64,000 nucleotides of DNA from Streptomyces sp. TBY4 (GTDB lineage: Bacteria > Actinomycetota > Actinomycetes > Streptomycetales > Streptomycetaceae), in assembly GCF_024213195.1 (NCBI RefSeq), contig NZ_JANAVF010000002.1, positions 186,001 through 250,000 of the forward strand, in the 5' to 3' direction. Positions 3,458 through 17,546 of the stretch are shown piece by piece. Numbering within the stretch: position 1 is the stretch's first letter; the number at the start of each line of letters is the position of its first letter. The notes under the pieces are model-generated. The model made no database searches and had not been told where the DNA came from. It saw nothing but the letters and a program-made list of their open reading frames with translations. The position numbers and the translations under genes are program-made.

Positions 3458-3523
3458 GGTGCCGGATCCTAGTGGTGGGATCTGGAGGCTGAGGCTGAGG
3501 CTGTGGAGGAAGGGGCGGAGGGC

Positions 3524-4186
3524 ATGGAGGATCCGGGTGGTGAGCTGTTCCCGCGGGAGCGGACCGAGATCGTGCCCGGCGCCGTGCACGTGCCCGACTG
3601 GCTGGGGCCCGGGCGGCAGCGGGAGTTGCTGGAGGCCTGCCGGGGATGGGCCCGGCCGCCCGCCGGGCTGCGCACGGTGCGCACGCAGGGCGGGGGAACC
3701 ATGAGCGCCCGGCAGGTGTGCCTGGGGCTGCACTGGTACCCGTACGGATACGCGACCACCGCCGTCGACGGGGACGGGGCGCCGGTCAAGGCGATGCCGG
3801 ACTGGCTGGCGCTGCTGGGGCGCGCCGCCGTGGCCGCCGCCTACGGGCAGGAGCCGGATCCGGGGCTCGCGTACGACATCGCCCTGGTGAACTTCTACGA
3901 GGGCGACTCCCGCATGGGCATGCACCGGGACGCGGAGGAGCGCTCGGAAGCCCCGGTGGTCTCGCTGAGCCTGGGTGATTCCTGCCTCTTCCGCTTCGGC
4001 AACAACGCCTCGCGCGGGCGTCCGTATCGGGACGTTGAGCTGCGCAGCGGGGATCTGTTCGTCTTCGGCGGGCCCGTCCGACGGGCCTTTCACGGGGTGC
4101 CGAAAGTCCTGCCCGGCACCGCTCCGCCGGGCCTCGGGCTGACCGGGCGGCTGAACATCACGCTGCGGGTCGGCGGGCTCGGCTAG
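3524..4186 (+). CDS. alkB: AlkB-type 2-oxoglutarate/Fe(II) dioxygenase
   Basis: A 220-residue protein of the AlkB family, which repairs N-alkylated bases in DNA or RNA by oxidative demethylation. The iron ligands are visible: H134 and D136 in MGMHRDAEE and the distal His in RRAFHGV. They are followed by the 2-oxoglutarate-binding signature RLNITLR (RxNxTxR) near the C-terminus. The aromatic-rich substrate-lid region (LHWYPYGYATT) precedes them. The start could be GTG at 3503, seven codons upstream. ATG 3524 is preferred because a purine-rich GGAG lies just upstream. It is divergent from the 2792-3457 gene and 43 bp upstream of the ROK gene. Whether it acts on nucleic acid or, like some homologues, on protein cannot be told from sequence. 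Confidence 0.88.
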   Translation: MEDPGGELFPRERTEIVPGAVHVPDWLGPGRQRELLEACRGWARPPAGLRTVRTQGGGTMSARQVCLGLHWYPYGYATTAVDGDGAPVKAMPDWLALLGRAAVAAAYGQEPDPGLAYDIALVNFYEGDSRMGMHRDAEERSEAPVVSLSLGDSCLFRFGNNASRGRPYRDVELRSGDLFVFGGPVRRAFHGVPKVLPGTAPPGLGLTGRLNITLRVGGLG

Positions 4187-4229
4187 CGGGCGGCGTCCTC
4201 GACGCTCCGATCATGCGAGGATCGCTGTC

Positions 4230-5618
4230 ATGAACGGCAACGGGGCCCCGCGGCGGGTGGGGGATGTGACCACGGTGTCCGCTGGGACGGACGGGACAGC
4301 AGGGACCGCAGGGGCCAGTACGGCCGGGGGAACCGAGGGATCCGACGGGGCCGGCGCGTCCGGCGCCGGCGTCGCACCGACGGCGTCCGCGTCCGCGGCA
4401 GCGGCGGCCGGCTCCGCGCGGACCAAGCTGGAGCGGGGCCGCGGCGCGCTGGGCCCGGCCCTGGAGCTCGTCCACACCGGCCGGGCCCCGACCCGCGCCG
4501 TCCTGACGGCCGAGCTCGGCGTCACCCGCGCCACCGCCGGCGCCGTCGCCGCCGAGCTGGAGGCGCTCGGCCTGATCCGCGTGGACTCCCGCCCGGGCGG
4601 GGCCGGCGGAACCCAGGGCCGGCCCTCGCACCGGCTCTCCGTGGACGAGAACGGCCCGGTGGCCCTGGCCGCGCAGGTGCACTCGGACGGGTTCCGGGCC
4701 GCCCTGGTCGGCCTCGGCGGCCGGATCGTCGCCACGGCTCCCGGAAGGGTCCCCGTGTCGGCCGACCCCGCGCAGGTGCTCGGAGCCGTCGTCGAAGCCG
4801 GGGCGGCGCTGCTCGCCCGGACCGGCCGGCGCTGCATCGGCGCGGGCCTCGCGGTGCCCTCGGCGGTCGCGGAGCCGGAGGGTACGGCGCTGAACCCGCT
4901 GCACCTGGCCTGGCCCGCCGGTTCCCCCGTCCGGGCCATCTTCGCCGACTGCGTGAAGGAGGCCGGCATCGACGGCCCCGCGCTGACCGGCAACGACGTG
5001 AACCTCGCCGCGCTCGCCGAGCACCGGCACGGCGCCGGCCGCAGCGCTCAGCACCTGCTCTGTGTGGCCACCGGGCACCGCGGGGTCGGCGGGGCGCTGG
5101 TCCTGGACGGCCGTCTGCACAGCGGGAGTTCGGGCCTGGCCCTGGAGGTCGGCCACCTCACCGTGAACCCGGAGGGGCGCGCCTGCCACTGCGGCAGCCG
5201 CGGCTGCCTCGACGTGGAGGCCGACCCGCTGGCCTTCCTCACCGCCGCCGGGCGCACCCCGGGCCCCGAGGTGTCCCTGCTCCAGCAGGCCCGCGACCTG
5301 CTGCGCGAGGAGTCCGCGGACCCGGGCGTACGGGCCGCCACCGAGGAGCTCATCGACCGGCTCGGCCTGGGCCTCGCGGGCCTGGTCAACATCCTGAATC
5401 CGGACCGGATCATCCTGGGCGGACTCCACCGGGAGCTGCTCTACGCCGACCCCGAGCGGCTGCGCGCGGTGGTCGCGGACCGCAGCCTGTGGGGCCGCAG
5501 CGGCGGCGTGCCCATCCTGCCGTGCACGCTCGACCACAACAGCCTGGTCGGAGCCGCCGAGCTGGCCTGGCAGCCGGTGCTGGACGACCCCCTCGGGACC
5601 CTGGGCACGGCGGCCTGA
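4230..5618 (+). CDS. ROK family transcriptional regulator
   Basis: A 462-residue ROK-family protein. Residues about 65-120 form a MarR/Crp-like winged helix (LTAELGVTRATAGAVAAELE), and residues about 130-455 carry the sugar-kinase-like ROK fold. The zinc-binding signature is visible as ACHCGSRGCLDVEAD, with three cysteines in C-x-C-x4-C. The usual catalytic-site element appears as TGNDVNLAALAE. Such proteins normally repress carbohydrate genes and respond to a sugar or phosphosugar. The first 60 residues are an unusual Gly/Ala/Ser/Thr-rich extension before the DNA-binding domain. A later start is possible, but no better ribosome site is seen. A GAGGAT hexamer 7 nt before the ATG suggests a leaderless start. 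The target operon is not evident nearby. Confidence 0.85.
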   Translation: MNGNGAPRRVGDVTTVSAGTDGTAGTAGASTAGGTEGSDGAGASGAGVAPTASASAAAAAGSARTKLERGRGALGPALELVHTGRAPTRAVLTAELGVTRATAGAVAAELEALGLIRVDSRPGGAGGTQGRPSHRLSVDENGPVALAAQVHSDGFRAALVGLGGRIVATAPGRVPVSADPAQVLGAVVEAGAALLARTGRRCIGAGLAVPSAVAEPEGTALNPLHLAWPAGSPVRAIFADCVKEAGIDGPALTGNDVNLAALAEHRHGAGRSAQHLLCVATGHRGVGGALVLDGRLHSGSSGLALEVGHLTVNPEGRACHCGSRGCLDVEADPLAFLTAAGRTPGPEVSLLQQARDLLREESADPGVRAATEELIDRLGLGLAGLVNILNPDRIILGGLHRELLYADPERLRAVVADRSLWGRSGGVPILPCTLDHNSLVGAAELAWQPVLDDPLGTLGTAA

Positions 5619-5621
5619 ACC

Positions 5622-5639
5622 CCCGGAGCCCGCTCCGGG
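5622..5639. terminator. Short GC hairpin between convergent genes
   Basis: CCCGGAG and CTCCGGG form a perfect 7-bp stem with a 4-nt loop just after the ROK stop at 5618 and before the end of the anti-sigma-type gene at 5659. There is no U-tract, as is common for actinomycete terminators. Position rather than stability supports the call. Confidence 0.4.
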
Positions 5640-5658
5640 CGGGCACGGCGGCCGGAGG

Positions 5659-6303
5659 CTACCCGGGCCGGGCGCCGACCGGGTCGGTCGCCGACAGGCG
5701 GGCGGAGACCGGCTCGGAGGGTGCGGCGACGGGCGGGGCCGGCGCGGGCTCCCGTACGGACTTCTTGCCGGGTTCCTTCCCGGGCGGCGGCGCCGGCTTC
5801 TCGGCGAGGAGCACCGGGTGGCGTTCCGGTGCGGCAGGGCCGGGCGCGGCGCGCAGCGAGAACCACACCACCTTTCCCGGGCAGTCGTCCTGCTGCCGGG
5901 CCCCCCACGCCTCGCTCAGCGCCTCCACGAGCGCGAGCCCGCGCCCGGAGGTCTCCAGGGCGTCGACTACGGAGGTGCACGTGCCCGCGGCAGTGCTCGC
6001 GGAGGGGTTCTCGGCCCGGGCGGCCCCGGAGTCGTGGAGCATCGGCAGGCGGGGGTCGCTGTCGTAGACGGAGACGGTCAGCCGGCCGAGGCGGAGCTCG
6101 ATCTCGACCGTGCAGGTCTTGTCGGGCTGCGCATGGCGGTGGACGTTGCTGAGCAGCTCCGTCACGCCGAGCGCAGCCCGGTCTATGAGCGGATCCAGCT
6201 GCCAGTGGCGCAGTTGCGCCGAAACGATTCGGCGGATCTGGCCGATCCGCAAGGGCAGGGCCTGCAGTTCGACGACGCAGTGCCTGCGGGAATGACTGAT
6301 CAC
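5659..6303 (-). CDS. Anti-sigma-type ATP-binding protein (HATPase_c_2)
   Basis: A 214-residue protein with a GHKL ATPase fold over residues about 20-160. The N-box is GVTELLSNVHRHAQ, the G1-like element is VYDSDPRLPM and the G2-like element is SGRGLALVEALSEAWG. These are the hallmarks of Streptomyces RsbW/SpoIIAB-like ATPases, which bind sigma factors or anti-anti-sigma partners. No histidine phosphotransfer domain is present. The C-terminal ~50 residues are a disordered Pro/Ala/Glu stretch. The GTG at 6303 has a GGGGAG ribosome site 8 nt upstream. It is transcribed divergently from the PLP-enzyme gene across a 280-bp regulatory region, an arrangement I recall as recurrent in Streptomyces. 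Its partner is unknown. Confidence 0.87.
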   Translation of the reverse strand: MISHSRRHCVVELQALPLRIGQIRRIVSAQLRHWQLDPLIDRAALGVTELLSNVHRHAQPDKTCTVEIELRLGRLTVSVYDSDPRLPMLHDSGAARAENPSASTAAGTCTSVVDALETSGRGLALVEALSEAWGARQQDDCPGKVVWFSLRAAPGPAAPERHPVLLAEKPAPPPGKEPGKKSVREPAPAPPVAAPSEPVSARLSATDPVGARPG

Positions 6304-6346
6304 GGCTGCGACTCCCCGACATCAGTGTTACGGGTGCTGCACCCTC

Positions 6347-6465
6347 GGTGACGCCTCCCCAGGGTCACCCACTGTGGGCCGGTGTGCAACCGAACGCGAT
6401 CGAAAGCATTTCGCATAGGTACCCAAAGTGACCGTTTGTGCAGGTGGGCGGGGTACATTTCGAAA
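6347..6465. promoter_or_regulatory. Palindrome cluster between divergent ATPase and PLP-enzyme genes
   Basis: Three inverted repeats lie in this divergent intergenic region. GGTGAC (6347-6352) pairs with GTCACC (6364-6369) across 11 bp. CGAAAGCATTTCG (6401-6413) is a perfect 5+3+5 inverted repeat. TTTCGAAA (6458-6465) is a perfect 8-bp palindrome. The TTTCG element shared by the last two, about 50 bp apart, could be a half-site. No regulator can be named. Confidence 0.4.
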
Positions 6466-6496
6466 GCGGGCGGTGCGGGGAGACCCGGCGCGCACC

Positions 6497-6565
6497 AGGA
6501 CATCAGGACATCGGGGCACAGGACACCGGATACCGGGACACCGGACACCAAGCAGTACCAAGCAG
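6497..6565 (+). repeat. Short direct repeats in the leader of the PLP-enzyme gene
   Basis: The leader just upstream of the AAGGAG ribosome site is a run of degenerate repeats: AGGACATC twice in tandem (6497-6512), GGACACCGG twice (6521-6529 and 6536-6544), and CCAAGCAG twice at 10-bp spacing (6548-6555 and 6558-6565). The strand is A/C-rich on the sense side and would be poorly structured in the transcript. Confidence 0.55.
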
Positions 6566-6583
6566 CACGAAGGAGCACGGCGC

Positions 6584-7714
6584 ATGAGCACCACCACCGG
6601 TACGACCGCCACGACCATCGACGTCGACCGCAGCGACGCGGACTACCGAGCCTGGCTGAAAGAGGCCGTCCGCAAGGTGCAGGCGGACGCGAACCGCTCC
6701 GCCGACACCCACCTCCTGCGCTTCCCGCTCCCCGAGGCCTGGGGCATCGACCTCTACCTCAAGGACGAGTCCACCCACCCGACGGGCTCCCTCAAGCACC
6801 GCCTCGCCCGCTCCCTGTTCCTCTACGCCCTCTGCAACGGCTGGATCCGCCCCGGACGCCCCGTCATCGAGGCCTCGTCCGGCTCCACCGCCGTCTCGGA
6901 GGCCTACTTCGCCAAGCTGATCGGCGTCCCGTTCATCGCCGTCATGCCGCGCACGACGAGCCCCGAGAAGTGCCGGCTCATCGAGTTCCACGGCGGCGAG
7001 TGCCACTTCGTCGACGACTCGATGAAGATGTACGAGGAGTCGGCCGAGCTCGCCGCCCGCACCGGCGGCCACTACATGGACCAGTTCACGTACGCGGAGC
7101 GGGCGACGGACTGGCGCGGCAACAACAACATCGCCGAATCCATGTACCAGCAGCTGCGGTTGGAGCGCTACCCGGAGCCCACCTGGATCGTGGCCACGGC
7201 CGGTACGGGCGGCACCTCCGCGACCATCGCGCGCTACGTGCACTACATGCAGCACGACACCCGCATCTGCGTGCCGGACCCGGAGAACTCCTGCTTCTTC
7301 GACGGCTGGACGCAGGGTGACCCGCACGCGACCAGCGATTGCGGCTCGCGCATCGAGGGCATCGGGCGGCCCCGGATGGAGCCGAGCTTCGTCCCCGGGG
7401 CCATCGACCGGATGATGCGGGTCCCCGACGCGGCGAGCGTCGCCGCGTGCCGGGCGCTGGAGCGGGTGATCGGCCGCAAGGCGGGCGGGTCCACGGGGAC
7501 CGGGGTGTGGAGCGCGCTGAAGATCATCTCGGAGATGGTGGCGGAGGGCCGCACGGGCAGCGTCGTGACCCTGCTCTGCGACGGGGGCGAGCGCTACCTC
7601 GACAAGTACTACTCCGACGCCTGGCTGGCTGAGCAGGGGCTCGACATCGCCCCGTACGCGCGGACCCTCGACACGATGCTGGCGACCGGCGTGTGGAGCG
7701 AGCCCGTCGGCTGA
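6584..7714 (+). CDS. PLP-dependent cysteine synthase family protein
   Basis: A 376-residue fold-type II PLP enzyme. The Schiff-base lysine is in [12 protein letters not shown], the phosphate or substrate loop is [16 protein letters not shown], and the PLP-phosphate Gly loop is [14 protein letters not shown]. This matches the cysteine synthase/cystathionine beta-synthase group, which performs beta-replacement on O-acetylserine-like substrates. An extra C-terminal region with many Cys/Gly and [13 protein letters not shown] is kept. The start at 6584 is chosen because AAGGAG lies 8 nt upstream; a GTG at 6428 would translate the repeat leader. It is divergent from an anti-sigma-type ATPase, hinting at sigma-linked control. 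True substrate unknown. Confidence 0.88.
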
Positions 7715-7784
7715 AACGATTCCCCTGGCCGGTGCGGGGTCCGCTGGCTACGCTGTGCGGACTTCGGGCGCGGGGCGGGGAGCG

Positions 7785-8447
7785 ATGGTGGAGACCAAGG
7801 ACGGCGGCACCGGCGGTAGCGGCGTGGGCGGGGCAGGGCCGTTGACCTGCCCCCGGTGCGGCCGGGAGGACCAAGTGCTCGGCGTCTCCGCGTCGTTCCT
7901 GCGAGCCAAGTCCAAGGTGAGCACGGAGCACAAGGGCGGCGAGGGCGACCACGTCACCACCCGTGAGGAGAACTCGGCGCTGGCCAAGGCCCTCGCGGTC
8001 GCCCCGGACGAGCCGGACGAGAGCACCACGGGCTGCCTCGGCGCGCTGCTCGTCGCGGTGTCGATCGGTGCGTTCGTCTGGGGCGGGATCGCGGGCAAGT
8101 GGTTCGAGGGCGGCGGCGCGGCCCCGTGGCTCTACGAGGGTGACGGCGACGACCTCCCCTTCGGAGTCGAGGACGCCACCACCTACCTGGGCTGGATCTC
8201 GGCGGCCTCGCTGCTCGTGGGCGCCCTCCTGATCGCCCTGTCGGGCCGGGCCGTACGGGTCTGGCGCCGCCGGACCGCACCGGGACGGGCCGCCGCCGAC
8301 CGCGTCTGGACGGAGGGCTGGTACTGCGGCCGCTGCGGCACGGTCCACATCGCCGGCGAACGGGCCATGAGCCTGCAGGAGTTCCGCGTCCGGGTCTGGT
8401 CGGCGGGCGGCTACGGGGACCTGGCCGTGCGGCATCCCGCGGTCTGA
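7785..8447 (+). CDS. Two-TM membrane protein with zinc-ribbon motifs
   Basis: About 220 residues. An N-terminal CPRCGRED motif resembles half a zinc ribbon. Two transmembrane segments follow (about residues 80-103 and 130-150) and a C-terminal WYCGRCGTVHI motif supplies a second CxxC, so the two CxxC pairs could form one split zinc ribbon on the cytoplasmic face. The C-terminal pair comes directly after an Arg-rich stretch. The GTG at 7755 is an alternative start, but it sits right on a TACGCT -10-like hexamer (7749-7754), so ATG 7785 is preferred. No enzyme motif is visible. It stands alone between the PLP enzyme and a convergent SRPBCC gene. Confidence 0.75.
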   Translation: MVETKDGGTGGSGVGGAGPLTCPRCGREDQVLGVSASFLRAKSKVSTEHKGGEGDHVTTREENSALAKALAVAPDEPDESTTGCLGALLVAVSIGAFVWGGIAGKWFEGGGAAPWLYEGDGDDLPFGVEDATTYLGWISAASLLVGALLIALSGRAVRVWRRRTAPGRAAADRVWTEGWYCGRCGTVHIAGERAMSLQEFRVRVWSAGGYGDLAVRHPAV

Positions 8448-8474
8448 ACCGTGACGGTCCCGGCCGGACGGCTC

Positions 8475-8966
8475 CTACTGACCCGCCCCCTGCCCCCGCG
8501 CCGCCAGCCGCAGGTCCAGCGCGCGCACCGCCGTGCGGAACGAGTGGCCGAGGGCCGGCCGGGCCGCGGCGAGGGCGAGGCGGACGGTGGGCGGGCCGTC
8601 GGCGGCGAAGGTCCACTGGACGTGGGTGCCGGAGCCGGAGGGGGTCAGGCGCCACTCCTCCAGCAGGGCCCGCAGTCCGGGGGCGTTGGTCTTGTCGACC
8701 CGGTAGGCGTAGCGCCGCTCAGGATCCGCGGCCATGATCGTCTCCTCGAACCGGACCCCGCCCGCCAACCTGATCGCGCGCCCGGCGCCGCCGTCCGTGG
8801 GACGTGCCCCGGTGACGGCCCGGAACCAGCTCGGCCAGCCCTCGACCTCCTCGGCCAGCGCCCGGTACACGTGCTCGGGAGCCGCCGTGGTCCGGCCGGA
8901 GAAGACCAGGCGGGTGGGGGCGACCTCGATGAAGTCCAGTCCTACGGGCCGGAGCAGGCGGAACAT
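8475..8966 (-). CDS. SRPBCC family protein
   Basis: A 163-residue START/Bet v1-like protein of the polyketide cyclase/SRPBCC superfamily, a hydrophobic-ligand-binding helix-grip fold. The N-terminal strand and helix (VFSGRTTAAPEHVYRALAEE) and the motif WPSWFRAVTGARP are typical, followed by the beta-sheet and a long C-terminal helix (RTAVRALDLRLAARG). Catalytic function is usually not deducible in this family. The GAGGGAG just upstream supports the ATG at 8966. The gene is convergent with the 7785 gene and divergent from the GNAT gene at 9131. Confidence 0.85.
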   Translation of the reverse strand: MFRLLRPVGLDFIEVAPTRLVFSGRTTAAPEHVYRALAEEVEGWPSWFRAVTGARPTDGGAGRAIRLAGGVRFEETIMAADPERRYAYRVDKTNAPGLRALLEEWRLTPSGSGTHVQWTFAADGPPTVRLALAAARPALGHSFRTAVRALDLRLAARGQGAGQ

Positions 8967-9130
8967 GGCGGCACTCCCTCGGTTCGGCGGACGGCCGGTG
9001 GCATCCGGCGGGCTGTCACCATAGCTGTCGGTCCGTCAGTTGTCCGTGGTGGGGTGGGATACGGGCCGCCCGGCCGGCAGGGCTGCGCACCCGTTTCGCG
9101 GACCGGGCCCCGGCCGGGACAATGCCGCAC

Positions 9131-9643
9131 ATGCTGATCAGAGCAGCGCACATCGACGAGCTGTCCCTCCTCCAGGACATCGAGCGGGCCGCGGGGGAAT
9201 GCTTCCGGACCATCGGCATGCCGGAGATCGCCGACGACGAACCGCTTCCGCTGGAGGAACTCCGCGCCTACCGGCGGGCCGGGCTGGCCTGGGTCGCGGC
9301 CGAGGGCGCCGGTACGGGGACCCCGGTCGGCTACCTCCTCGCCGACCGGGTCGACGGGAACCTCCACGTCGAGCAGGTATCCGTCCACCCGGACCGCGCC
9401 CACCGCCGCATCGGGCGGTCCCTGCTGGACCACCTCGCCGGACGGGCGCGGGCGGAAGGCGCCCCCGCGCTGACCCTCACGACCTTCACCGACGTGCCGT
9501 GGAACGCCCCGTACTACGCCCGGTGCGGCTTCCGGACCCTGGGCGAGAGCGGCCTCGGGCCGGGCCTGCGGGACATCCGCGACCGCGAGGCCGTGCACGG
9601 GCTCGACCGCTGGCCCCGGGAGTGCATGCGCCGGGACCTCTAG
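9131..9643 (+). CDS. GNAT family N-acetyltransferase
   Basis: A 170-residue acetyl-CoA-dependent acyltransferase. Motif A is visible as VSVHPDRAHRRIGRSLLDHL, with the R-x-I-G-R pyrophosphate loop. Motif B follows as NAPYYARCGFRTLGE, containing the usual Tyr and the GF element. The acceptor is unknown. ATG 9131 is preferred over ATG 9122 because a GACAAT -10-like hexamer (9118-9123) lies exactly 7 nt upstream of it, which fits a leaderless transcript, and the first ATG falls within that hexamer. The gene is convergent with the beta-helix/AAA+ gene. Confidence 0.88.
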   Translation: MLIRAAHIDELSLLQDIERAAGECFRTIGMPEIADDEPLPLEELRAYRRAGLAWVAAEGAGTGTPVGYLLADRVDGNLHVEQVSVHPDRAHRRIGRSLLDHLAGRARAEGAPALTLTTFTDVPWNAPYYARCGFRTLGESGLGPGLRDIRDREAVHGLDRWPRECMRRDL

Positions 9644-9659
9644 GCCGTCTCTTCCGGAT

Positions 9660-9683
9660 CCTGCCGGTCAGAGCTCCGGCAGG
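9660..9683. terminator. Small hairpin between convergent GNAT and beta-helix/AAA+ genes
   Basis: CCTGCCGG and CCGGCAGG form an 8-bp stem with an 8-nt loop. The stem includes the last codons and stop of the minus-strand gene (stop at 9668-9670). No U-tract. A weak bidirectional terminator is plausible. Confidence 0.3.
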
Positions 9684-12139
9684 TCGGCCGGATAGAGCAG
9701 GGTGAGGTCCTCCTTGTTCGGCTCCGACAGCTGCGCGACCCGCCCCGCGTGCCGCTCGACCATCGACTCGAAGGTCTGGCGGGCGGTGCGGCCGTTGCCG
9801 AAGGCGGGCCCCTTGGGCAGGTCGGTGAAGTACGTCAGCAGCGCCTCGGAGGTCTTCTCGCCGAGCAGGTACTCGTGCTCCTCGGCCTGCTGCTCCACGA
9901 TCCGCAGCAGCTCCTCGGGCCCGTAGTCCCCGAAGGTGATGGTCCGGGAGAAACGGGAGGCCACACCCGGGTTCACGGTGAGGAAGCGGTCCATCTCCGC
10001 CGTGTACCCGGCGACGATCACCACCACCGCGTCCCGGTGGTCCTCCATCAGCTTCACCAGCGTGTCGATCGCCTCGCGCCCGAAGTCGCGGCCCGAGTCC
10101 TCGGGCGCCAGCGCGTACGCCTCGTCGATGAACAGCACCCCGCCGCGCGCCCGGTCGAAGGCCTCCTGGGTGCGGATCGCGGTGGACCCGATGTGCTCGC
10201 CGACCAGGTCGACCCGGGACACCTCCACGAGGTGGCCGCGCTCCAGCACCCCGAGGGAGGCCAGGATCTCCCCGTACAGCCGGGCCACGGTGGTCTTGCC
10301 GGTGCCGGGGGAGCCGGTGAAGACCAGGTGGCGGCGGACCGAGGCGGCCTTGAGCCCCGCCTGCTGCCGGCGCCGGCCCACCTCGATCATGTCGGTGAGC
10401 GCGCGGACCTCGCGCTTGACGCTGTCCAGCCCCACCAGCGCGTCCAGGTGCCCCAGCACCTCGGCCGAACCGCGGGCCCCGGGCTGTCCGGTGGTGGCCG
10501 GGTCCGCCTCGTCGGCCGGCCGCTGGGCGGGCACCCGCTCGGCCGTCGCCGCCGCTACGGGGCCCTGCGCGGCCGATACCGTACGGATCCCCGTGCGCTC
10601 CCCGGCCGGCAGGGCTCCCGCACCCTGGCCGGCGCCCGCGCCGGAGGCGGACCGGGCCGCGAGGCGGGGGCCGGACTCGTCGCTCGTGCAGTCCTCGGCG
10701 ACCGGGCCGTCCTCCGCGAACTCGTAGCCCCCGCGCGCACAGCGCTCGGTGTGGCAGCGGTGCAGGGAGGTCCGGCAGCCGTCGATGACGTGGAAACCGA
10801 AGCCGGCGCTGCCCGTGACCCGGCACGCCGTGAAGGTGCCGCGCCCGCCCGCGGACACGTAGAAGCCGGCTTCGGCGGGGGAGCTGACCGTGCACCGCTC
10901 CAGCGCGGGATCCGCGCCCTTGGTGACGATCACGCCGGTCTGGACCGAGTCGATGGAGCAGTTGGCGAGGGTGCCGCCGCTGCCGTGGTCGCGGAACCAG
11001 GCGCCCGTGGCGGCCTCCCGGATCCGGCAGTCGTCCAGCTGGGCCGTCGCCCCGTCGCTCACCGAGACGGCGGTGTTGCGCACTTGGGAGATGTCGCTGT
11101 CCACGACGTCCACCCGCGAACCCCGGTCCAGGACGAACAGCGCGTCCGGCACGTCGTGCACCCGGCAGGAGTCCAGCGAGACCCCGGCCCCGTCGCTGAT
11201 CCAGACGGCCGGATAGTCGCCGGTGCTGTCGTGGATCTCGCAGGAGTCGGCGACGACACGGGTGCCCGGATCCCACACCGACAGGCCGTTGCGGCCGAAC
11301 CGGCGGACGGTGGTGCGGCTGAGCGTGAGCACGGACCGGGACCGCAGGTCCACCGCGTTCTCCGGGATGTCGTGGATGTCGCAGCCGGCGAGCGTGAGGA
11401 CGGCGTCCGTGTCGAGGGTGACCCCGTCGGCGGAGGTGCGGTGGACCGCGCAGTCGGTGAGCACGGCCGTGGCCCGGGCGGCGATCTGCACGCCGGCGCC
11501 CTTGATCTCGTAGACCTCGCAGCCCAGCGCCTCCAGCCCCGAGCCGTCGCCGGTCACGGCGATGCCGGCGCCCGTGGCGTGGTGGATCCGGCAGCGCTCC
11601 AGCCGGGGACGGCCGCCGCCGCGCACGGAGACCCCGGTCTGGCCTGCGGCCACCACCTCGCAGTCGGCGAACACCCCGCCGCCGCCGTCCAGTACGGCGA
11701 TCCCGGTCCCGGCGGAGTTCTCCACGGTGCAGCGCCGGACCAGCGGCCGGGCGCCGCTCCCGCGGACCTCGATGCCGGCCGCCGAGCGGGTGCTCACCCG
11801 CAGGTCGGTGAGTTCGGGGGAGCCGTCCTCGATGAGGAGCGCGGGCGCCGTGGGGTCCTGGCCCTCCAGGTGGAGGTCCTGGATGACGGCCGAGGCGCGG
11901 ACGGTCAGCGCGACCCCGTCGGGCGGTGCGATCCGCACCGAACCCAGAGAGCCCTCCGGACCGCGCAGGGTCACGGCGTGGTGCAGCACCAGATTCTCCC
12001 GGTAGGTGCCGGGGGCGATGGACAGGACGTCGCCGTCGCCCGCCGCGGCCAGCGCAGCGGTCAGCGTCGGATAATCACCGGAGCGGCGACGCCACCGCGA
12101 GGAACCGCCGTGCGTCACCTGGACCGTGCCCTGAGCCAT
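9668..12139 (-). CDS. Cytosolic parallel beta-helix protein fused to CbxX/EccA-type AAA+ ATPase
   Basis: An 823-residue fusion. Residues about 20-500 are a right-handed parallel beta-helix: roughly 20 coils of about 23 residues with repeating cores such as AGIEVRGSGARPLVRRCTVE and spaced Cys/His-containing turns (ERCRIHH, CDIHDI). A Pro/Ala linker (about 505-570) follows. The C-terminal domain is a CbxX/CfqX AAA+ module: Walker A GSPGTGKTT at about 609, Walker B LFIDEAYAL at about 669, sensor AGYTAEMDRF and arginine-finger region NPGVASRFSRTI. Its closest known relatives by architecture are rubisco activase CbxX and the EccA ATPase of type VII secretion. There is no signal peptide, so the beta-helix is expected in the cytoplasm, which is unusual. 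ATG 12139 excludes a shadow extension over the next gene. The client is unknown. Confidence 0.88.
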   Translation of the reverse strand: MAQGTVQVTHGGSSRWRRRSGDYPTLTAALAAAGDGDVLSIAPGTYRENLVLHHAVTLRGPEGSLGSVRIAPPDGVALTVRASAVIQDLHLEGQDPTAPALLIEDGSPELTDLRVSTRSAAGIEVRGSGARPLVRRCTVENSAGTGIAVLDGGGGVFADCEVVAAGQTGVSVRGGGRPRLERCRIHHATGAGIAVTGDGSGLEALGCEVYEIKGAGVQIAARATAVLTDCAVHRTSADGVTLDTDAVLTLAGCDIHDIPENAVDLRSRSVLTLSRTTVRRFGRNGLSVWDPGTRVVADSCEIHDSTGDYPAVWISDGAGVSLDSCRVHDVPDALFVLDRGSRVDVVDSDISQVRNTAVSVSDGATAQLDDCRIREAATGAWFRDHGSGGTLANCSIDSVQTGVIVTKGADPALERCTVSSPAEAGFYVSAGGRGTFTACRVTGSAGFGFHVIDGCRTSLHRCHTERCARGGYEFAEDGPVAEDCTSDESGPRLAARSASGAGAGQGAGALPAGERTGIRTVSAAQGPVAAATAERVPAQRPADEADPATTGQPGARGSAEVLGHLDALVGLDSVKREVRALTDMIEVGRRRQQAGLKAASVRRHLVFTGSPGTGKTTVARLYGEILASLGVLERGHLVEVSRVDLVGEHIGSTAIRTQEAFDRARGGVLFIDEAYALAPEDSGRDFGREAIDTLVKLMEDHRDAVVVIVAGYTAEMDRFLTVNPGVASRFSRTITFGDYGPEELLRIVEQQAEEHEYLLGEKTSEALLTYFTDLPKGPAFGNGRTARQTFESMVERHAGRVAQLSEPNKEDLTLLYPADLPEL

Positions 12140-12255
12140 GGTGCTGTCGTGCCCCCACCCTCGTGTTCCGTGTGTCCGACTGCTGGTCGGAGCAGCCGCT
12201 CCGGCGACCCGGACGCGCTCCACCGTAGCGCGCGCGGGGCCGGTGAGTTGCCAGG

Positions 12256-12867
12256 TCAGCTGCCCGCGTCCGCCCGGCCCCAGTCCGGTCCCGCCGCGGC
12301 CCACGCGCGGTCCAGCCGGATGTACCGCCGATGCATGAGCCTTCGTACGACCAGGCGGCGGAGCGTCTCCACGAGCACGGCGATGCCCAGGGCCGCCGCG
12401 AGGCCCGCCACGCCCGCGTGGAAGCTGGCGGAGGAGGGGTCCAGGGGCTGTCCGACGAGGCGGCCGTGCGTATCGGTCCATATCCTGAACCGGTCGCCGG
12501 GATGCGGGGGTTCCTCCGCGGCCGGCACGGTGCCCTGGTGGTTGCTGCCGTCGGGCGCCGTCCACGACGCGACGATCTGCGTACGCTGCGGGGCCTGGCG
12601 CTGCGCCGCCGGCTCGGTGGCCGCGCCGAGCAGGGCCTCCGGTGTCGGCCGGACCACCACCGCCGGTACGAGATGCCGCTCCTGCCGCTGTTCGCGTGCG
12701 GCCCGCTGTAGCGTGCCGTCCACCCGCAGTCCGGCGGCCCAGCCGACGGCCGGAGCCACCAGCAGGACGCAGACCAGCGCCGCGAAGGCCACCCAGGCCT
12801 CGAATAGATCCGTCGGGCGGCGCAGCGGATTGCGCCGCCACCGCCACACTCCCATTGCTGTCCGCAC
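12256..12867 (-). CDS. Rv1733c-like transmembrane protein
   Basis: A 203-residue protein with two membrane segments (about residues 24-46 and 150-168) around a Pro/Gln-rich exported domain. The N-terminus WRWRRNPLRRPTDLFEAW matches the Rv1733c family of actinobacterial membrane proteins. The exported part contains VASWTAPDGSNHQGTVPA and PGDRFRIWTDTHGRLV, both characteristic of that family. Function is unknown; the mycobacterial founder is a dormancy-regulon antigen (family knowledge). A GGGGGAG ribosome site 7 nt upstream supports the GTG at 12867. It lies directly upstream of the beta-helix/AAA+ gene on the same strand, 116 bp away, and may share its transcript. Confidence 0.85.
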   Translation of the reverse strand: MRTAMGVWRWRRNPLRRPTDLFEAWVAFAALVCVLLVAPAVGWAAGLRVDGTLQRAAREQRQERHLVPAVVVRPTPEALLGAATEPAAQRQAPQRTQIVASWTAPDGSNHQGTVPAAEEPPHPGDRFRIWTDTHGRLVGQPLDPSSASFHAGVAGLAAALGIAVLVETLRRLVVRRLMHRRYIRLDRAWAAAGPDWGRADAGS

Positions 12868-13113
12868 GGTCCGGCTCCCCCTACTTCTGCCAGTCTGCGC
12901 CTACCTGCCGTCCCAGCCTCCCGCATGCCCCGGCCACCCGCATTCCGGGACGCGCGAGACGTGTGTCACCCGATCCGGTGTCATGAGTCGGTGCTCACGT
13001 CCCGAACGTTCCAACGGGCAGACGGTGGCGGTTGGTTCCAGGGTGACGCGAGAGCCCCTCGAAGGTGTCGGTCCGGGTGGTCTGCCCGGCCCCCTCCGGC
13101 CCCCGGCACGCGC

Positions 13114-13938
13114 TCACGCCAGGACGTGCACCTCGTCGCCGACCCGCAGCGTCCCCAGCCGCACGGGCACCAGCAGCCGCCCGAAGGCCAGCGACTTCCC
13201 GATCCTCCGGTGCCGGGCCAGGGTCGGGAGCGGCTCCTTGCCGCGCAGCGCCGTCGTCTGGTCGGTGGTCGTCACGACGCAGCGCCCGCACTCGCGCGCC
13301 CCGCGGAAGACGGCATCGCCGATCGCGACGCGCTCCCAGCCGTCCTCGGCCCAGGGCTCGGCTCCGGAGACCACCACGTTCGGGCGGAACCGGTTCATCG
13401 GGAGGGGACCCTCGTCGGGATGGCTGCCCTCGGCGATCAGCGCGTTGAGCGCATCCAGCGAGGCGAGGGTGGTGACCAGCAGCGGATAGCCGTCGGCGAG
13501 GCTCACGGTCTCGCCGGGCAGTGCGTACTGGGGATCGACCGGCCGGCGTACGGCCGGGTCGTCCAGGTGCACCAGGTGGGCCGGTACGCCCAGGTACGCG
13601 GTGAACCAGTCGGCGGCGGCCTGCGCCGCGGCCACCGTCTCGATCTTCTTGCCGAAGAGCACCACCGGCTCCAGCGGACCCCGCTCCGGGACCTCCACCG
13701 TCAGATCCGCCATGCCCGGCGCCGAGACCTCGAACCCGCCGCCCCCCAGCGGACGGGCCCGCGCCAAGGCCAGCCTCGGCTGCTGGCGTTGGGTGATGAC
13801 CGTGCCCTCCCCGTCCACCACAGCCCACCGGCGGTCACCGGACAGACCCCAGGGCTCCACGGCCACCTCGTCGGGTGCCGTCCCCGCCACCGACTTGACG
13901 GGATGGACGTGGAGCGCCTGGACACGCAGTTTCACCAT
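13114..13938 (-). CDS. MOSC domain-containing protein (YcbX/mARC-like)
   Basis: A 274-residue protein with an N-terminal MOSC_N beta-barrel (LHVHPVKSVAGTAPDEVAVE, GDRRWAVVD) and a C-terminal MOSC domain carrying the conserved cysteine that binds molybdenum cofactor (ECGRCVVTTTDQ). Family members reduce N-hydroxylated compounds or deliver sulfur to the cofactor. RFRPNVVVSG is the typical molybdopterin-binding stretch. The 2Fe-2S domain found in some homologues is absent. The ATG at 13938 is preceded by CAGTAT at 6 nt, so a leaderless message is possible. The molybdate transporter at the far right edge is too distant to be functionally linked by position. Confidence 0.88.
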   Translation of the reverse strand: MVKLRVQALHVHPVKSVAGTAPDEVAVEPWGLSGDRRWAVVDGEGTVITQRQQPRLALARARPLGGGGFEVSAPGMADLTVEVPERGPLEPVVLFGKKIETVAAAQAAADWFTAYLGVPAHLVHLDDPAVRRPVDPQYALPGETVSLADGYPLLVTTLASLDALNALIAEGSHPDEGPLPMNRFRPNVVVSGAEPWAEDGWERVAIGDAVFRGARECGRCVVTTTDQTTALRGKEPLPTLARHRRIGKSLAFGRLLVPVRLGTLRVGDEVHVLA

Positions 13939-14010
13939 GGAGGAATACTGCCAGCCGCCCTCACGGACTCCACCTCGACCTCGTCGCGGGCGGCCGGCGG
14001 GAACCGCCGG

Positions 14011-14613
14011 TCAGTAACCGCGCCCCTGCGGCTGGTACGGACGCCCGTACGGATCCTCGAACGAGGCGGCCGGGACGGGCGCGGGCTGCGCCTGCATCGG
14101 ACGCGGCGCGGCCGGGCGCATCGCCTCGTACCCGGTGCCCGTGGCGACCGGGCGGGGCTGCTGCGGCTGGGGCTGCGGAACGTAGCCCGTGCGGGCCGCG
14201 AACGGCTGCGGCTGCGGCTGCTGCGGAACGTACGGCACCGGCGCCTGCTGGAGCGGCATCGGCATCGACATGGGCTGCGGCATCGGCGGCATCTGCTGCA
14301 TGTGCGGCATCTGCTGCGGCGCGGCCTGCTGCTGGTACGGGTACCCGTACGCCGGGGCCTGCTGCTGTTGCGGGCGGGCGGGCGGCAGGGCCGCCGGGAG
14401 CGCCGCCGGCAGGGCGGGGAGCGAGGACGCGAGGGCCGGGAGGTACCCACCGCTCGAGTAGCCGGCGCTCGGGGAGTCGTAGGCGGCGGGGACGCGGATC
14501 GGGGCGATCTGCGGAGTGCCGCGTTCGGCGACGAGGGAGTCGTAGATAGGGGTGTCCGGGAAGGAGGGCGCGGAGTAGTAACCGCCGCCATAAGTGGAGC
14601 GGGGGGAGGTCAT
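14011..14613 (-). CDS. Gln/Pro/Met-rich DUF6643-like protein
   Basis: A 200-residue low-complexity protein. The first 45 residues (TSPRSTYGGGYYSAPSFPDTPIYDSLVAERG) are the most conserved-looking part, followed by a long Pro/Gln/Ala/Met-rich tail with runs such as QQQQ and PMPQPMSMPMP. No signal peptide, membrane segment or catalytic motif is visible. It resembles Streptomyces proteins I recall as DUF6643 (name from memory, function unknown). The start is well defined: TAACTT lies 6 nt upstream, and a TGGACC -35-like element 17 bp further, so the message is probably leaderless. A perfect 12-bp inverted repeat stands upstream. Confidence 0.8.
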   Translation of the reverse strand: MTSPRSTYGGGYYSAPSFPDTPIYDSLVAERGTPQIAPIRVPAAYDSPSAGYSSGGYLPALASSLPALPAALPAALPPARPQQQQAPAYGYPYQQQAAPQQMPHMQQMPPMPQPMSMPMPLQQAPVPYVPQQPQPQPFAARTGYVPQPQPQQPRPVATGTGYEAMRPAAPRPMQAQPAPVPAASFEDPYGRPYQPQGRGY

Positions 14614-14619
14614 GGACCT

Positions 14620-14625
14620 AAGTTA
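14620..14625 (-). promoter_or_regulatory. -10 element of a leaderless promoter for the DUF6643-like gene
   Basis: On the minus strand TAACTT fits TANNNT and lies 6 nt before the ATG at 14613. A TGGACC hexamer (4 of 6 matches to TTGACA) is placed 17 bp upstream of it. This spacing predicts transcription starting at the initiation codon. Confidence 0.55.
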
Positions 14626-14669
14626 AGCCCACGACTTCACCGGGTCCATAGCAAGGTCCCGTCAAGACC

Positions 14670-14699
14670 GCTCTGACCTGCATATTCGCAGGTCAGAGC
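14670..14699. promoter_or_regulatory. Perfect 12-bp inverted repeat
   Basis: GCTCTGACCTGC (14670-14681) and GCAGGTCAGAGC (14688-14699) are perfect reverse complements with a 6-nt AT-rich loop. It lies about 60 bp upstream of the DUF6643-like gene and about 170 bp downstream of the glycosyltransferase stop. No U-tract follows on either strand. It may be a terminator for the glycosyltransferase or a large palindromic operator. Confidence 0.6.
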
Positions 14700-14870
14700 C
14701 ACAGCTTTCACTTCCTGTTCACGTGCACGATTTGGCCACTTCCGCCCCGTCTTGCTCCTACTCGTACTCACCGGTTGGGTGTTGCACGGATGACGCGCCG
14801 GCCACGCGCTGACGAGGCGTCACAACCCTGTGACCTCGGACGACGTGAAGTTGAAGGGCGCGGTCCGGTT

Positions 14871-16130
14871 TCAGGCGTCACTGGGCCGGGCATAGGTACG
14901 GCCCTTCCACGCCGCCCCGCGTCCGCGGTAGTGCTGCACGGCCGAGTCGACGGTCATCAGGAGGTAGAGCAGCGCGGTGAGCGGGAGCAGCGGCGCGAGG
15001 ACCGCGGGCTGGCGGTAGTAGCGCAGCATCGGCAGATAGGTGCCGGCCATCAGCAGCCAGGCCAGGCCGCCCGCCCAGGCGGTGGCGGGCCGGCCGGCGG
15101 CGAGACCGGCGAGGAGCGCGGCCGGCGGCACGAGGTAGACCAGGACCAGCCCGGCCACGGTCCCCGCCAGCAGCAGGGGCTGGTGGCGCAGTTGCGCGTA
15201 GGCGCTGCGCGAGACCATCCGCCACAGATCGGTGAGGGAGCTGTACGGGCGCACGCTGTCCACCCGCTCCGCGAGGCCGAGCCAGATCCGCCCGCCGGCG
15301 CGCTGTACCGCCCGGGCGAGGGAGACGTCGTCGATGACGGCCTGCCGGATCGACTCCGGGATCCCGGCCCGCACGGCGGCCCCGGTGCGCAGCAGGACGC
15401 ACCCGCCGGCGGCGGCCGCGGTGCGGGTGCCGGGGCGGTTGATCCAGCGGAAGGGGTAGAGCTGCGCGAAGAAGTACACGAAGGCGGGAACGATCAGCCG
15501 CTCCCAGACGCTGACGGCACGCAGCCGGGCCATCTGGGACACCAGGTCGAGATCGGCCGAGGTCGCGGCGGAGACCAGCTCGCGCAGGCTGTCGGGAGCG
15601 TGGGCGATGTCGGCGTCGGTGAGGAGGAGGTAGTCCGGGGCGGGGCCCGGGCTGGAACCCGGGCTCGGAGCTGGGGATGCTCCCGGGCTTGCGCCCGGGA
15701 CTGCGGCCGGGCTGGAGCCCGGGGCGGGGCGGGGGGTGCCGGAGCGGGCGTGCGCGATGCCGTGCCGGAGTGCCCAGAGCTTGCCGGTCCAGCCGGCGCC
15801 GGGTTCGCCGGGGGAGAGGACCGTCAGGGGCAGTCCGGGGTGCGCTCCGGCGAGCCGCCGGGCGAGGTCGGCCGTGCCGTCCGTACTGCCGTCGTCGACC
15901 AGGATGACCTCGGCCTCGCCCGGATAGTCCTGCGCGAGGAGCGAGGGCAGGCTGCGCGGCAGCACTTCGGCCTCGTCCCTGGCCGGGACCACGATCGCCA
16001 CCGACGGCCAATGGTCGGGGGCGTGCCGCGGAGGCAGGCGCGTGTCGGTCCGCCAGAACATGCCTTGGCCGAGGGTGAGCCAGAGCCAGACGGCGAGCGA
16101 GGCGCACGCGGCGACGAGGAGGAAACCCAT
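14871..16130 (-). CDS. HpnB-like family 2 glycosyltransferase, membrane-anchored
   Basis: A 419-residue GT-A glycosyltransferase. A membrane segment at residues 2-22 precedes the catalytic domain. SVAIVVPARDEAEVL and VILVDDGSTDGT are the nucleotide-sugar-binding strands, TDADIAHAP holds the metal-binding DxD, and a Q..R..W-type acceptor region and three C-terminal membrane helices (about 320-400) follow. This layout is that of hopene-associated (HpnB) and related glycosyltransferases. Oddly, residues about 130-166 form a Pro/Ala/Ser/Gly-rich insert of simple repeats directly before the DxD strand. The ATG at 16130 is followed at once by the membrane segment. An open frame continues upstream to 17336, but it crosses repeats and the racemase gene and is rejected. 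Confidence 0.85.
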   Translation of the reverse strand: MGFLLVAACASLAVWLWLTLGQGMFWRTDTRLPPRHAPDHWPSVAIVVPARDEAEVLPRSLPSLLAQDYPGEAEVILVDDGSTDGTADLARRLAGAHPGLPLTVLSPGEPGAGWTGKLWALRHGIAHARSGTPRPAPGSSPAAVPGASPGASPAPSPGSSPGPAPDYLLLTDADIAHAPDSLRELVSAATSADLDLVSQMARLRAVSVWERLIVPAFVYFFAQLYPFRWINRPGTRTAAAAGGCVLLRTGAAVRAGIPESIRQAVIDDVSLARAVQRAGGRIWLGLAERVDSVRPYSSLTDLWRMVSRSAYAQLRHQPLLLAGTVAGLVLVYLVPPAALLAGLAAGRPATAWAGGLAWLLMAGTYLPMLRYYRQPAVLAPLLPLTALLYLLMTVDSAVQHYRGRGAAWKGRTYARPSDA

Positions 16131-16727
16131 CCCGGCAGTGTGCCGCGGGCGACACCGCGAAGAGTGGCGGGACACCGGGCTTCGGTGGCCCGGCTTGGGC
16201 GGGGCCGTGGCGGGGCGCACGGCAGGAGCGGCTCCGGGGTGCGTGGTGCTGCCGCCGCCGGCGGGGTGGGGGCCGGGCTGCGCCGTGGCGCACCGGGGGG
16301 AACGAGGGCCGGCTGGCCCCGGGCCGCCCCGGGTCCGGGCCGCTCCGGTCCGGGCCGCTCCGGTCCGGGGCCCCTCCGGTCCCGGGCCCCTCCGGGTCCG
16401 GGGGCGCCGCTCCGGATCCGGGTCCGGAGCCAGATCGGGGACCGGGGCCCTCCCGGGTGCCCCCGGGTCCGGGTCCTGGGGCGCCGCTCCGGGTCCGGGT
16501 CCGGAGCCAGATCGGGGACCGGGGCCCTCCCGGGTCCCCCCGGGTCCGGGTCTGGGTCCCCCTCCGGGTCCGGGTCCGGGTTCGGGTCTGGGTCCTCCCT
16601 CTGGGTCCGGGTCCGGGAGTAGGGCCGGGGCCGGGGCCGGATCGGGGCTGGGTGTGGGGTGGCTTCGTAGGGGGTGTGGCGGGCCCGTTGCCCCGGGTGG
16701 GGTGGGGGGATCGTTTAAGGTGACCAG
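16131..16727. repeat. 597-bp GC-repeat region between divergent genes, with a 77-bp tandem duplication
   Basis: This stretch has no convincing gene. From about 16320 to 16640 it is a run of variants of GGGTCCGGG. Inside it a 77-bp unit starting GGGCGCCGCTCCGG (16402-16478) is repeated in tandem at 16479-16555 with few mismatches. Long open frames on both strands here translate to Pro/Gly/Arg simple repeats and have no initiation signals. The promoters of the glycosyltransferase and of the racemase must lie at its two ends. Confidence 0.75.
16716..16721 (+). promoter_or_regulatory. -10 element of a leaderless promoter for the racemase gene
   Basis: TAAGGT fits TANNNT and lies 6 nt before the GTG at 16728. 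It also explains why no ribosome site is properly spaced upstream of this start. Confidence 0.5.
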
Positions 16728-17546
16728 GTGAAGATCGCCCTCATGGACTCCGGTATCGGCCTCCTCGCCGCGGCCGCCGCGATGCGGAGGCTGCGGCCGG
16801 ACGCGGAGCTGGTGCTGTCCTGCGACCCCGACGGGATGCCCTGGGGTCCGAGGACCCCGGAGGACCTCACCGGGCGGGCCCTCGCCGTCGCGCGGGCCGC
16901 CGCCACGCACCGGCCGGATGCGCTGATCGTCGCCTGCAACACCGCTTCCGTGCACGCCCTGCCCGCGCTGCGCGCCGCGCTGGAGCCCGCGATCCCGGTC
17001 ATCGGGACCGTGCCGGCGATCAAGCCCGCCGCGGCTGCCGGAGGCCGCGTCGCCATCTGGGCCACCCCCGCCACCACCGGCAGCCCCTACCAGCGCGGCC
17101 TGATCCGCGACTTCGCCGACGGGGCGCGCGTCACCGAGGTGCCGTGCCCCGGGCTGGCCGATGCCGTCGAGGCCGGTGACGAGGCCGCCGTCGTACGGGC
17201 CGTCGCCGCGGCCGCCGCGCTGACCCCGGCCGACGTCACCGACGTGGTGCTCGGCTGCACGCACTACGAGCTGGTCGAGGCCCCCATCCGGGCCGCGCTC
17301 GACCGGCGCACCGGCGGCGGCGCGTACGTCTTCCACGGCTCCGCCGAGCCCGTCGCCGTCCAGGCCCTGCGCCGGCTCGGCGCCCGCCCGGAGCCCGGCC
17401 TGCCGCCCACCGGCAGCCTGACCGTCCTGCTCAGCGGCCGCCCCGGCCCCCTCCCGGAGCCCGCCCTCGGCTACGCCGAGGGGCGTCTGCTCGCGGGTCG
17501 GAGCGCGGTGGTCGGGGAACCCGTGGGGGGACCCCTCACGGGCTGA
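16728..17546 (+). CDS. Aspartate/glutamate racemase family protein (MurI-like)
   Basis: A 272-residue protein of the cofactor-independent Asp/Glu racemase superfamily. Both catalytic cysteines are present in standard motifs: ACNTASVHALP and LGCTHYELVE. The N-terminal MDSGIGLL corresponds to the DSGxGG substrate loop of MurI. MurI makes D-glutamate for peptidoglycan, but Streptomyces usually carry a canonical MurI elsewhere, so this may be a paralogue. The GxGG loop is degenerate here (GIGLL), which supports altered specificity. It is isolated between two repeat-rich intergenic regions. Confidence 0.82.
   Translation: MKIALMDSGIGLLAAAAAMRRLRPDAELVLSCDPDGMPWGPRTPEDLTGRALAVARAAATHRPDALIVACNTASVHALPALRAALEPAIPVIGTVPAIKPAAAAGGRVAIWATPATTGSPYQRGLIRDFADGARVTEVPCPGLADAVEAGDEAAVVRAVAAAAALTPADVTDVVLGCTHYELVEAPIRAALDRRTGGGAYVFHGSAEPVAVQALRRLGARPEPGLPPTGSLTVLLSGRPGPLPEPALGYAEGRLLAGRSAVVGEPVGGPLTG

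Follow-up and report, generated by a model that had tools for sequence, protein, structure and literature searches.

A beta-helix joined to an AAA+ motor

We analysed a stretch of 64,000 nucleotides from Streptomyces sp. TBY4 (contig NZ_JANAVF010000002.1, positions 186,001 to 250,000; referred to here as the window), in which a gene on the minus strand encodes a right-handed parallel beta-helix joined through a linker to an ATPase module of the AAA+ class. Orthologues of this gene are called core copies in what follows, and the other beta-helix ATPases that we found in assorted Actinomycetes are called accessory relatives; many of the latter carry two AAA modules. The gene and its product comprise the following features.

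9668..12139, minus strand: coding sequence of the beta-helix AAA+ protein, ATG start at 12139, 823 amino acids
10676..12082, minus strand: right-handed parallel beta-helix, residues ~20-488 (Pfam PF13229, AlphaFold, VIA Z 35.9 over residues 14-488)
10772..11353, minus strand: part of the helix with an invariant strip, residues 263-456 (conservation analysis)
10481..10675, minus strand: disordered, poorly conserved linker, residues 489-553 (AlphaFold; mean pairwise identity 37%)
9671..10474, minus strand: AAA+ ATPase module with AAA_lid_6, residues 556-823 (Pfam, sequence and structure comparison)
10289..10315, minus strand: Walker A, GSPGTGKTT, residues 609-617 (G[SN]PGTGKTT in 21 of 21 core copies)
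10169..10210, minus strand: pore-loop-1-like stretch DLVGEHIGSTAIRT, residues 644-657, with His649 in place of the Tyr of CbbX and of the one-AAA relatives examined
10109..10141, minus strand: Walker B, GVLFIDEAYAL, residues 667-677 (motif comparison)
9938..9973, minus strand: arginine-finger stretch NPGVASRFSRTI, residues 723-734 (motif comparison)
9767..9805, minus strand: sensor-2 stretch AFGNGRTARQTFE, residues 779-791 (motif comparison)

An in-frame GTG lies further upstream, at 12847; an N-terminus equivalent to MAQG starts all 20 of the orthologues called in the genomes of relatives (gene calls throughout are those of our own script). A preliminary description of this DNA had claimed about 20 coils of beta-helix, the lack of a signal peptide, and a complete AAA+ module with Walker A, Walker B and an arginine finger, and each of these claims was borne out. 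In particular, inspection of residues 1-40 by eye revealed no hydrophobic signal-peptide stretch, and the protein is probably cytosolic. Pfam matched Beta_helix (5e-46), AAA (3e-17) and AAA_lid_6 (2e-15), and the PF13229 score of 156.6 bits (gathering threshold 25.9) agrees with the predicted fold in placing the N-terminal part among right-handed parallel beta-helices. AlphaFold, supplied with an alignment of 30 sequences, gave a model with a mean predicted local distance difference test (pLDDT) score of 86.8; the beta-helix lies mostly above 90, residues 489-553 below 50 and the AAA+ module mostly between 80 and 95. A strand spacing of ~23 residues corresponds to ~19-20 coils by our own count on the strands of the predicted model. 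Note that an earlier fold search was dominated by AAA+ chains, and VIA-align was taken for the helix instead: residues 14-488 superpose on a phage tail beta-helix (Z 35.9, 459 residues aligned), residues 225-488 on the alginate epimerase AlgG (Z 26.3), and, at the motor end, residues 556-823 on CbbX (Z 27.0). We also looked for signs that the repeat is something other than a beta-helix, or that core residues of the AAA+ module have been lost in orthologues, and found neither (AlphaFold, VIA-align, motifs in 21 of 21 copies).

The motor belongs with SpoVK, CbbX and EccA

All 21 core copies compared, that of the window included, keep Walker A, Walker B, sensor 1, the SRF arginine finger and the sensor-2 arginines, with VAGYT, NPGVASRF and GNGR present alongside both Walker motifs in every one. 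Among the hallmarks of the SpoVK-CbbX-EccA clade, a passage of Delerue et al. (PMC10659427) lists GY at sensor 1, an Asn a short way upstream of the arginine finger, and a sensor-2 arginine. The core copies show these hallmarks together with Walker A and B, and the window protein adds a CbbX-type fold and AAA_lid_6; a qualification is that the same passage gives the Asn-to-finger spacing as 4, whereas the SRF arginine of the core copies lies 6 past the Asn and the residue at +4 is Ala. All 21 core copies have His649, a position at which CbbX and all 15 one-AAA relatives compared carry Tyr.

The window protein scores highest against the NCBIfam profiles for SpoVK (272 bits), EccA (248) and CbbX (235), in each case below the cut-off (TIGR02881, 422.95; TIGR03922, 466.65; TIGR02880, 459.25). 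By sequence, its closest solved relatives are CbbX and EccA1. CbbX, the activase of red-type RuBisCO (3syk, 3syl, 3zuh), is the closest solved motor (phmmer 2e-55, in addition to the superposition above); it differs in having no large N-domain and in carrying Tyr rather than His in pore loop 1. In loci L064-L066 CbbX sits with RuBisCO genes (labels assigned by eye), and no RuBisCO large subunit was recognised by eye among the genes called at 3503-17546 of the window. SpoVK of Bacillus subtilis, which belongs to the same higher-order clade and supplies the best NCBIfam profile, is a chaperone of one enzyme, being reported in PMC10659427 as the dedicated chaperone of MurG; according to section 7 of that paper, it differs in its short N-domain and in occurring only in sporulating Firmicutes. 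EccA is likewise a CbxX-type AAA+ protein with AAA_lid_6, but its N-domain is a tetratricopeptide repeat (TPR) domain (PF21545), which matches the TPR-type EccA of the window's own genome and has no match in the window protein, where a beta-helix is found. The EccA score has to be read with the number of modules in mind: a two-AAA accessory protein (L060) reaches 481 bits, above the EccA cut-off and also above that for SpoVK, the two modules adding up.

Nearly all Streptomyces genomes examined have the core copy

In a survey of 61 genomes (the window's own and 60 relatives; 37 of the same genus and 24 others), 36 of the 37 same-genus genomes contained a full-length copy at 72-100% identity, or 72-94% for the 35 other than the window's, and no match at that level occurs among the matches listed for the 24 genomes outside the genus. 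Presence in 36 of 37 genomes argues that the gene is more than a chance occurrence. Named genomes were scanned separately, and the 80 best of 517 confirmed stretches were taken as loci, 43 of them core orthologues and 37 other beta-helix ATPases; the 43 come from Streptomyces, Kitasatospora, Actinacidiphila and one record titled 'Actinobacteria bacterium'.

Together, the named-genome scan (43) and the survey (21) provide 64 core loci, whose proteins are all distinct. The 66 accessory loci consist of the 37 from named genomes and 29 picked from the matches listed in the survey; the two sets share at least one protein (L042 = L132), with no type VII families around either copy. The flanks examined extended up to 8 kb in the named set and ~8-10 kb in the 61-genome set, less near contig ends.

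One face of the helix holds an invariant strip among core copies

Mean identity among the 64 core copies is 80.8% in the helix, 87.1% in the motor and 37.0% in the linker. When pairs of equal motor identity (70-75%) are compared, helix identity averages 55.9% for core copies (107 pairs), as against 34.2% for one-AAA relatives (20 pairs) and 46.4% for two-AAA relatives (12 pairs). An invariant strip of the helix includes D264, R266, W289, D290, W313, D316, D338, R339, W381, R383, H385, K407, D410, Y427 and H450. In the C-terminal half of the helix (rungs 263-471), the first ten residues of each rung, namely the strand and the turn that follows it, make up this strip and have a mean entropy of 0.28, the remainder 0.79; the N-terminal half is reversed (0.91 for the first ten residues, 0.64 for the rest). 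These entropies were calculated from 20 of the 64 core rows (pairs below 86% helix identity). Phase 0 ranked first among 23 phases, a value equalled in 2 of 20000 random phasings.

The strip residues differ from group to group. The 53 invariant residues of the strip are matched by two sets of 7 accessory copies at 22% and 25%, and the invariant motor residues by the same two sets at 77% and 76%; comparisons between groups used 14 one-AAA and 13 two-AAA rows of our own choosing. Judging from strand alternation, W313, W381, Y427 and H450 probably face outward. The data suit a face that serves recognition across the whole family through residues specific to each group.

Many accessory relatives lie in type VII secretion loci

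Beta_helix, AAA and AAA_lid_6 are present in all 37 accessory relatives of the named set, and the model of one two-AAA protein (L125) has a mean pLDDT of 85.2 and contains both AAA+ modules as well as a beta-helix. Type VII secretion families were detected in the flanks of 21 of the 37 named accessory loci (20 at E <1e-20) and of 20 of the 29 accessory loci from the survey; in the flanks of the core loci they were detected in none of the 43 named and none of the 21 survey loci (0/64). The profiles used came from clusters with members in L047, L050, L054, L055 and L057-L061 and from the WXG100 proteins of L056, L067, L070 and L074-L076. Because these sources overlap the survey loci, the count of 20 of 29 is partly circular, unlike that of 21 of 37. 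NCBIfam profiles recognised EccB, EccD and EccC in L060, and EccD and EccB in L056, above their cut-offs; in the loci tested, a mycosin and two WXG100 proteins matched below theirs. The link to secretion made in the preliminary description is supported at the level of the family, through the type VII loci around accessory relatives; at the core locus itself no type VII gene was detected.

In the type VII loci L054 and L057-L061 the beta-helix ATPase gene commonly adjoins the gene for the mycosin, an S8 protease. The IetA/IetS anti-phage pair likewise combines an AAA+ ATPase with a subtilisin. A called protein of more than 2000 residues was present in 12 of the 66 accessory loci; when four such giant neighbours were scanned, one (L133) had a T7SS_signal domain, one had a sub-threshold beta-barrel match and two had neither. 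These giants are putative effectors; the four scanned did not bear out an effector identity as a group.

Several accessory genes are unusual in their own right. In L057:7485-10795, next to type VII genes, a two-AAA beta-helix gene is split into two successive frames (441 and 670 amino acids), through either a genuine break or a sequencing error. In L130, L131, L138 and L142, all type VII loci, the second AAA+ module is degenerate, scoring 38-70 bits compared with at least 353 in most two-AAA proteins, and is likely a dead second ring. Nocardiopsis locus L156:2-5100 carries two-AAA genes in tandem, and both modules of the second gene are unusually diverged (260 and 150 bits, with long tree branches).

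A tree of 83 AAA modules, built with a 'quick' method from rows that included 12 of the 43 named core rows and the window's own, united the core rows in a single clade (Shimodaira-Hasegawa-like approximate likelihood ratio test, SH-aLRT, 100). One-AAA rows formed another clade (98), and a third (98) held 17 of 20 first modules of two-AAA proteins together with the four that have a degenerate second module. The beta-helix rows as a whole were not separated with support from the TPR and CbbX controls. The most fitting view of the core copy is as one branch of a family that is largely type VII-associated.

The neighbourhood of the core gene is conserved

A further gene at 6584..7714, to judge from its sequence, is one that we take to be cysteine-synthase-like. 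With it, the conserved neighbours of the core gene in the window are as follows.

12256..12792, minus strand: small membrane-protein gene upstream of the ATPase gene (no Pfam match), listed as context rather than as a demonstrated part of the machine
13114..13938, minus strand: MOSC-domain protein gene, conserved context (58 of 64 core loci)
14011..14613, minus strand: DUF6643 protein gene, conserved context (57 of 64 core loci)
6584..7714, plus strand: cysteine-synthase-like gene, conserved context (54 of 64 core loci), which ties the locus to Cluster 1451 as presented in part of PMC13118837

The membrane-protein gene was found in 57 of the 64 loci and a DeoR regulator in 56; some of the missing neighbours belong to loci truncated where a contig ends. 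The three Kitasatospora-type loci (L114, L115 and L117) have the order DUF6643-MOSC-ATPase gene, and the membrane-protein gene was not found there. That gene, whose Rv1733c-like product the preliminary description had taken as a hint at envelope or secretion links, yielded no Pfam match at E 0.01, and the case for it as the main clue was not supported. An operon with the membrane protein was likewise rejected, given that this is not the deepest-kept neighbour. Joint loss of the MOSC gene and the ATPase gene in genome G032 proved uninformative: the cysteine-synthase-like orthologue is absent too (best match 31%), so the whole region is apparently missing and nothing follows about a pairing with MOSC.

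Other genes at or near core loci include one with a TerD domain (PF02342), which lies close by in 44 of 64 loci (for example L031:13478-14629) and was not seen within eight genes of the ATPase gene in the window. The window also has an ADP-ribosylglycohydrolase gene (PF03747; 18236-19213, minus strand), whose family was seen at just one more of the 21 core loci set side by side. Elsewhere in the window, 23845-28170 (minus strand) encodes a protein of 1441 amino acids in which Pfam, at E 1e-4, recognises a Golvesin C-terminal domain and nothing else, and the product of 42147-44495 (plus strand) joins FHA domains to an ABC ATPase and an ABC-2 membrane domain in a single chain.

Discussion

The core copy is the Streptomycetaceae form of the family, lying outside type VII loci and near-universal in the genomes examined. 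The fact that it is kept in nearly all of these genomes, has a fixed recognition face and stands apart from type VII loci argues for a housekeeping chaperone with a single client as the likeliest role. We consider it probable, though well short of assured, that the window protein is a cytosolic, probably hexameric remodelling ATPase that acts as a dedicated core chaperone, with one fixed client or ligand on the face of the strip; in this best explanation the beta-helix takes the position of the TPR recognition domain of EccA. By analogy with CbbX and SpoVK, six motor modules would form a ring, from which linkers predicted to be flexible may carry six beta-helix arms. On one face of every arm, the strip of aromatic and charged residues would bind the dedicated client, or a ligand borne by it, and ATP turnover would then pull the client through the pore or rearrange it. 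Accessory relatives probably do likewise for type VII substrates encoded alongside them. The preliminary reading of a beta-helix on a CbbX/EccA-type motor finds support, and the role it suggested, in binding a polymer or a client, is plausible.

Several observations weigh against a dedicated chaperone of this kind. The predicted template modelling (pTM) score of 0.61 leaves open how the beta-helix and the AAA+ domain are placed relative to each other. His649, in place of the pore-loop Tyr, may weaken substrate pulling; a pore-loop His is also present in the mycobacterial-type EccA of L067. As to the strip, the phase was chosen after the conservation string had been viewed, all 23 phases being scanned later, and the 25 other invariant residues of the C-terminal half are also poorly matched by accessory copies (39% and 34%). 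Moreover, other groups favour the nearby phases 21 and 1 of 23 in the C-terminal half (contrast 0.45 and 0.20, versus 0.51), so that part of the pattern may reflect the fold itself, and a structural share is likely. In the tree the core clade falls near second modules and short-helix proteins with no more than moderate support (82). Separately, as regards type VII secretion, five of the 37 same-genus genomes (G009, G010, G011, G024 and G027) have no EccB that we could find and keep the core gene in every case, but EccC scores above its cut-off in G009 and EccC-like proteins score below it in the other four; independence of the core copy from type VII secretion is thus suggested rather than proven.

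That last point bears on a type VII chaperone acting in trans, in which the core copy would serve substrates encoded elsewhere in the genome. Accessory relatives do reside in type VII loci, EccB and EccC lie on contig C8 of the window's own genome, and the TPR-type EccA of that genome is likewise apart from them, on contig C17; given the lack of any detected type VII family in the flanks of the 64 core loci and the retention of the core gene in all five genomes where EccB was not found, we regard action in trans as a serious candidate that is nevertheless unlikely. The helix, which we take to be of the CASH type like those of AlgG and polysaccharide lyases, could instead bind or modify a glycan, with a motor that works on partners linked to glycans or producing them. 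For residues ~176-490, the top structural matches include AlgG and PL6 alginate lyases, the strip is rich in Trp, Tyr, His, Arg and Asp, a glycosyltransferase-2 gene is present in 46 of 64 core loci, and the enzyme served by SpoVK is a glycosyltransferase (PMC10659427). However, a phage tail protein superposes better than AlgG, and pertactin nearly as well, so the fold is no proof of a glycan ligand; the glycosyltransferase gene, moreover, does not adjoin the ATPase gene, and in L114 and L115, two of the three loci of the Kitasatospora type, none was seen up to seven genes away. A glycan-directed machine therefore seems improbable to us.

An anti-phage ATPase of the IetA kind was rejected and appears very improbable indeed: the matches of the AAA+ module to IetA are weak (PADLOC 31 bits; NCBIfam 25 bits, far below its cut-off of 510), a gene kept in synteny across 36 of 37 genomes does not resemble an anti-phage island, and no S8 protease was recognised by eye among the called neighbour genes. 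A bolder form of the dedicated-chaperone explanation is that, at the root of Streptomycetaceae, a chaperone of secretion was recruited to serve as a general cell machine, and that on each of six arms a groove of ~nine rungs, aromatic and charged, reads one fixed envelope-related client or polymer, which the ring then remodels. We put this forward tentatively and think it rather unlikely; if true, it would be, to our knowledge, the first housekeeping AAA+ machine with a beta-helix reading head, and the groove would reveal the ligand.

The preliminary description took this to be an undescribed machine, which overstated the case: section 7 of Delerue et al. (PMC10659427) mentions a beta-helix in EccA, and the combination of beta-helix and AAA+ had thus already appeared in print. 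What the present analysis adds is the division into core and accessory copies and the invariant strip. Very probably, the gene is the same by synteny as that of the Streptomyces orphan Cluster 1451 (PMC13118837), although no mention of an AAA+ motor, of type VII relatives or of a function was noticed in the portions of that report consulted. Within the open-access literature searched, we recognised no further paper on a beta-helix combined with CbxX, SpoVK, EccA, AAA or Streptomyces, or on polymorphic toxins and EccA, and neither the plasmid nor the literature searches yielded a function for the core gene. For EccA itself, a passage of a 2024 paper (PMC11217815) calls the function in type VII secretion unknown.

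A widely kept Streptomyces gene thereby gains a hypothesis, that of a dedicated AAA+ chaperone, along with a likely origin in a type VII-associated family and a few defined residues as targets for mutation. If a client were found, it would show how EccA-like motors choose their substrates through exchangeable N-domains.
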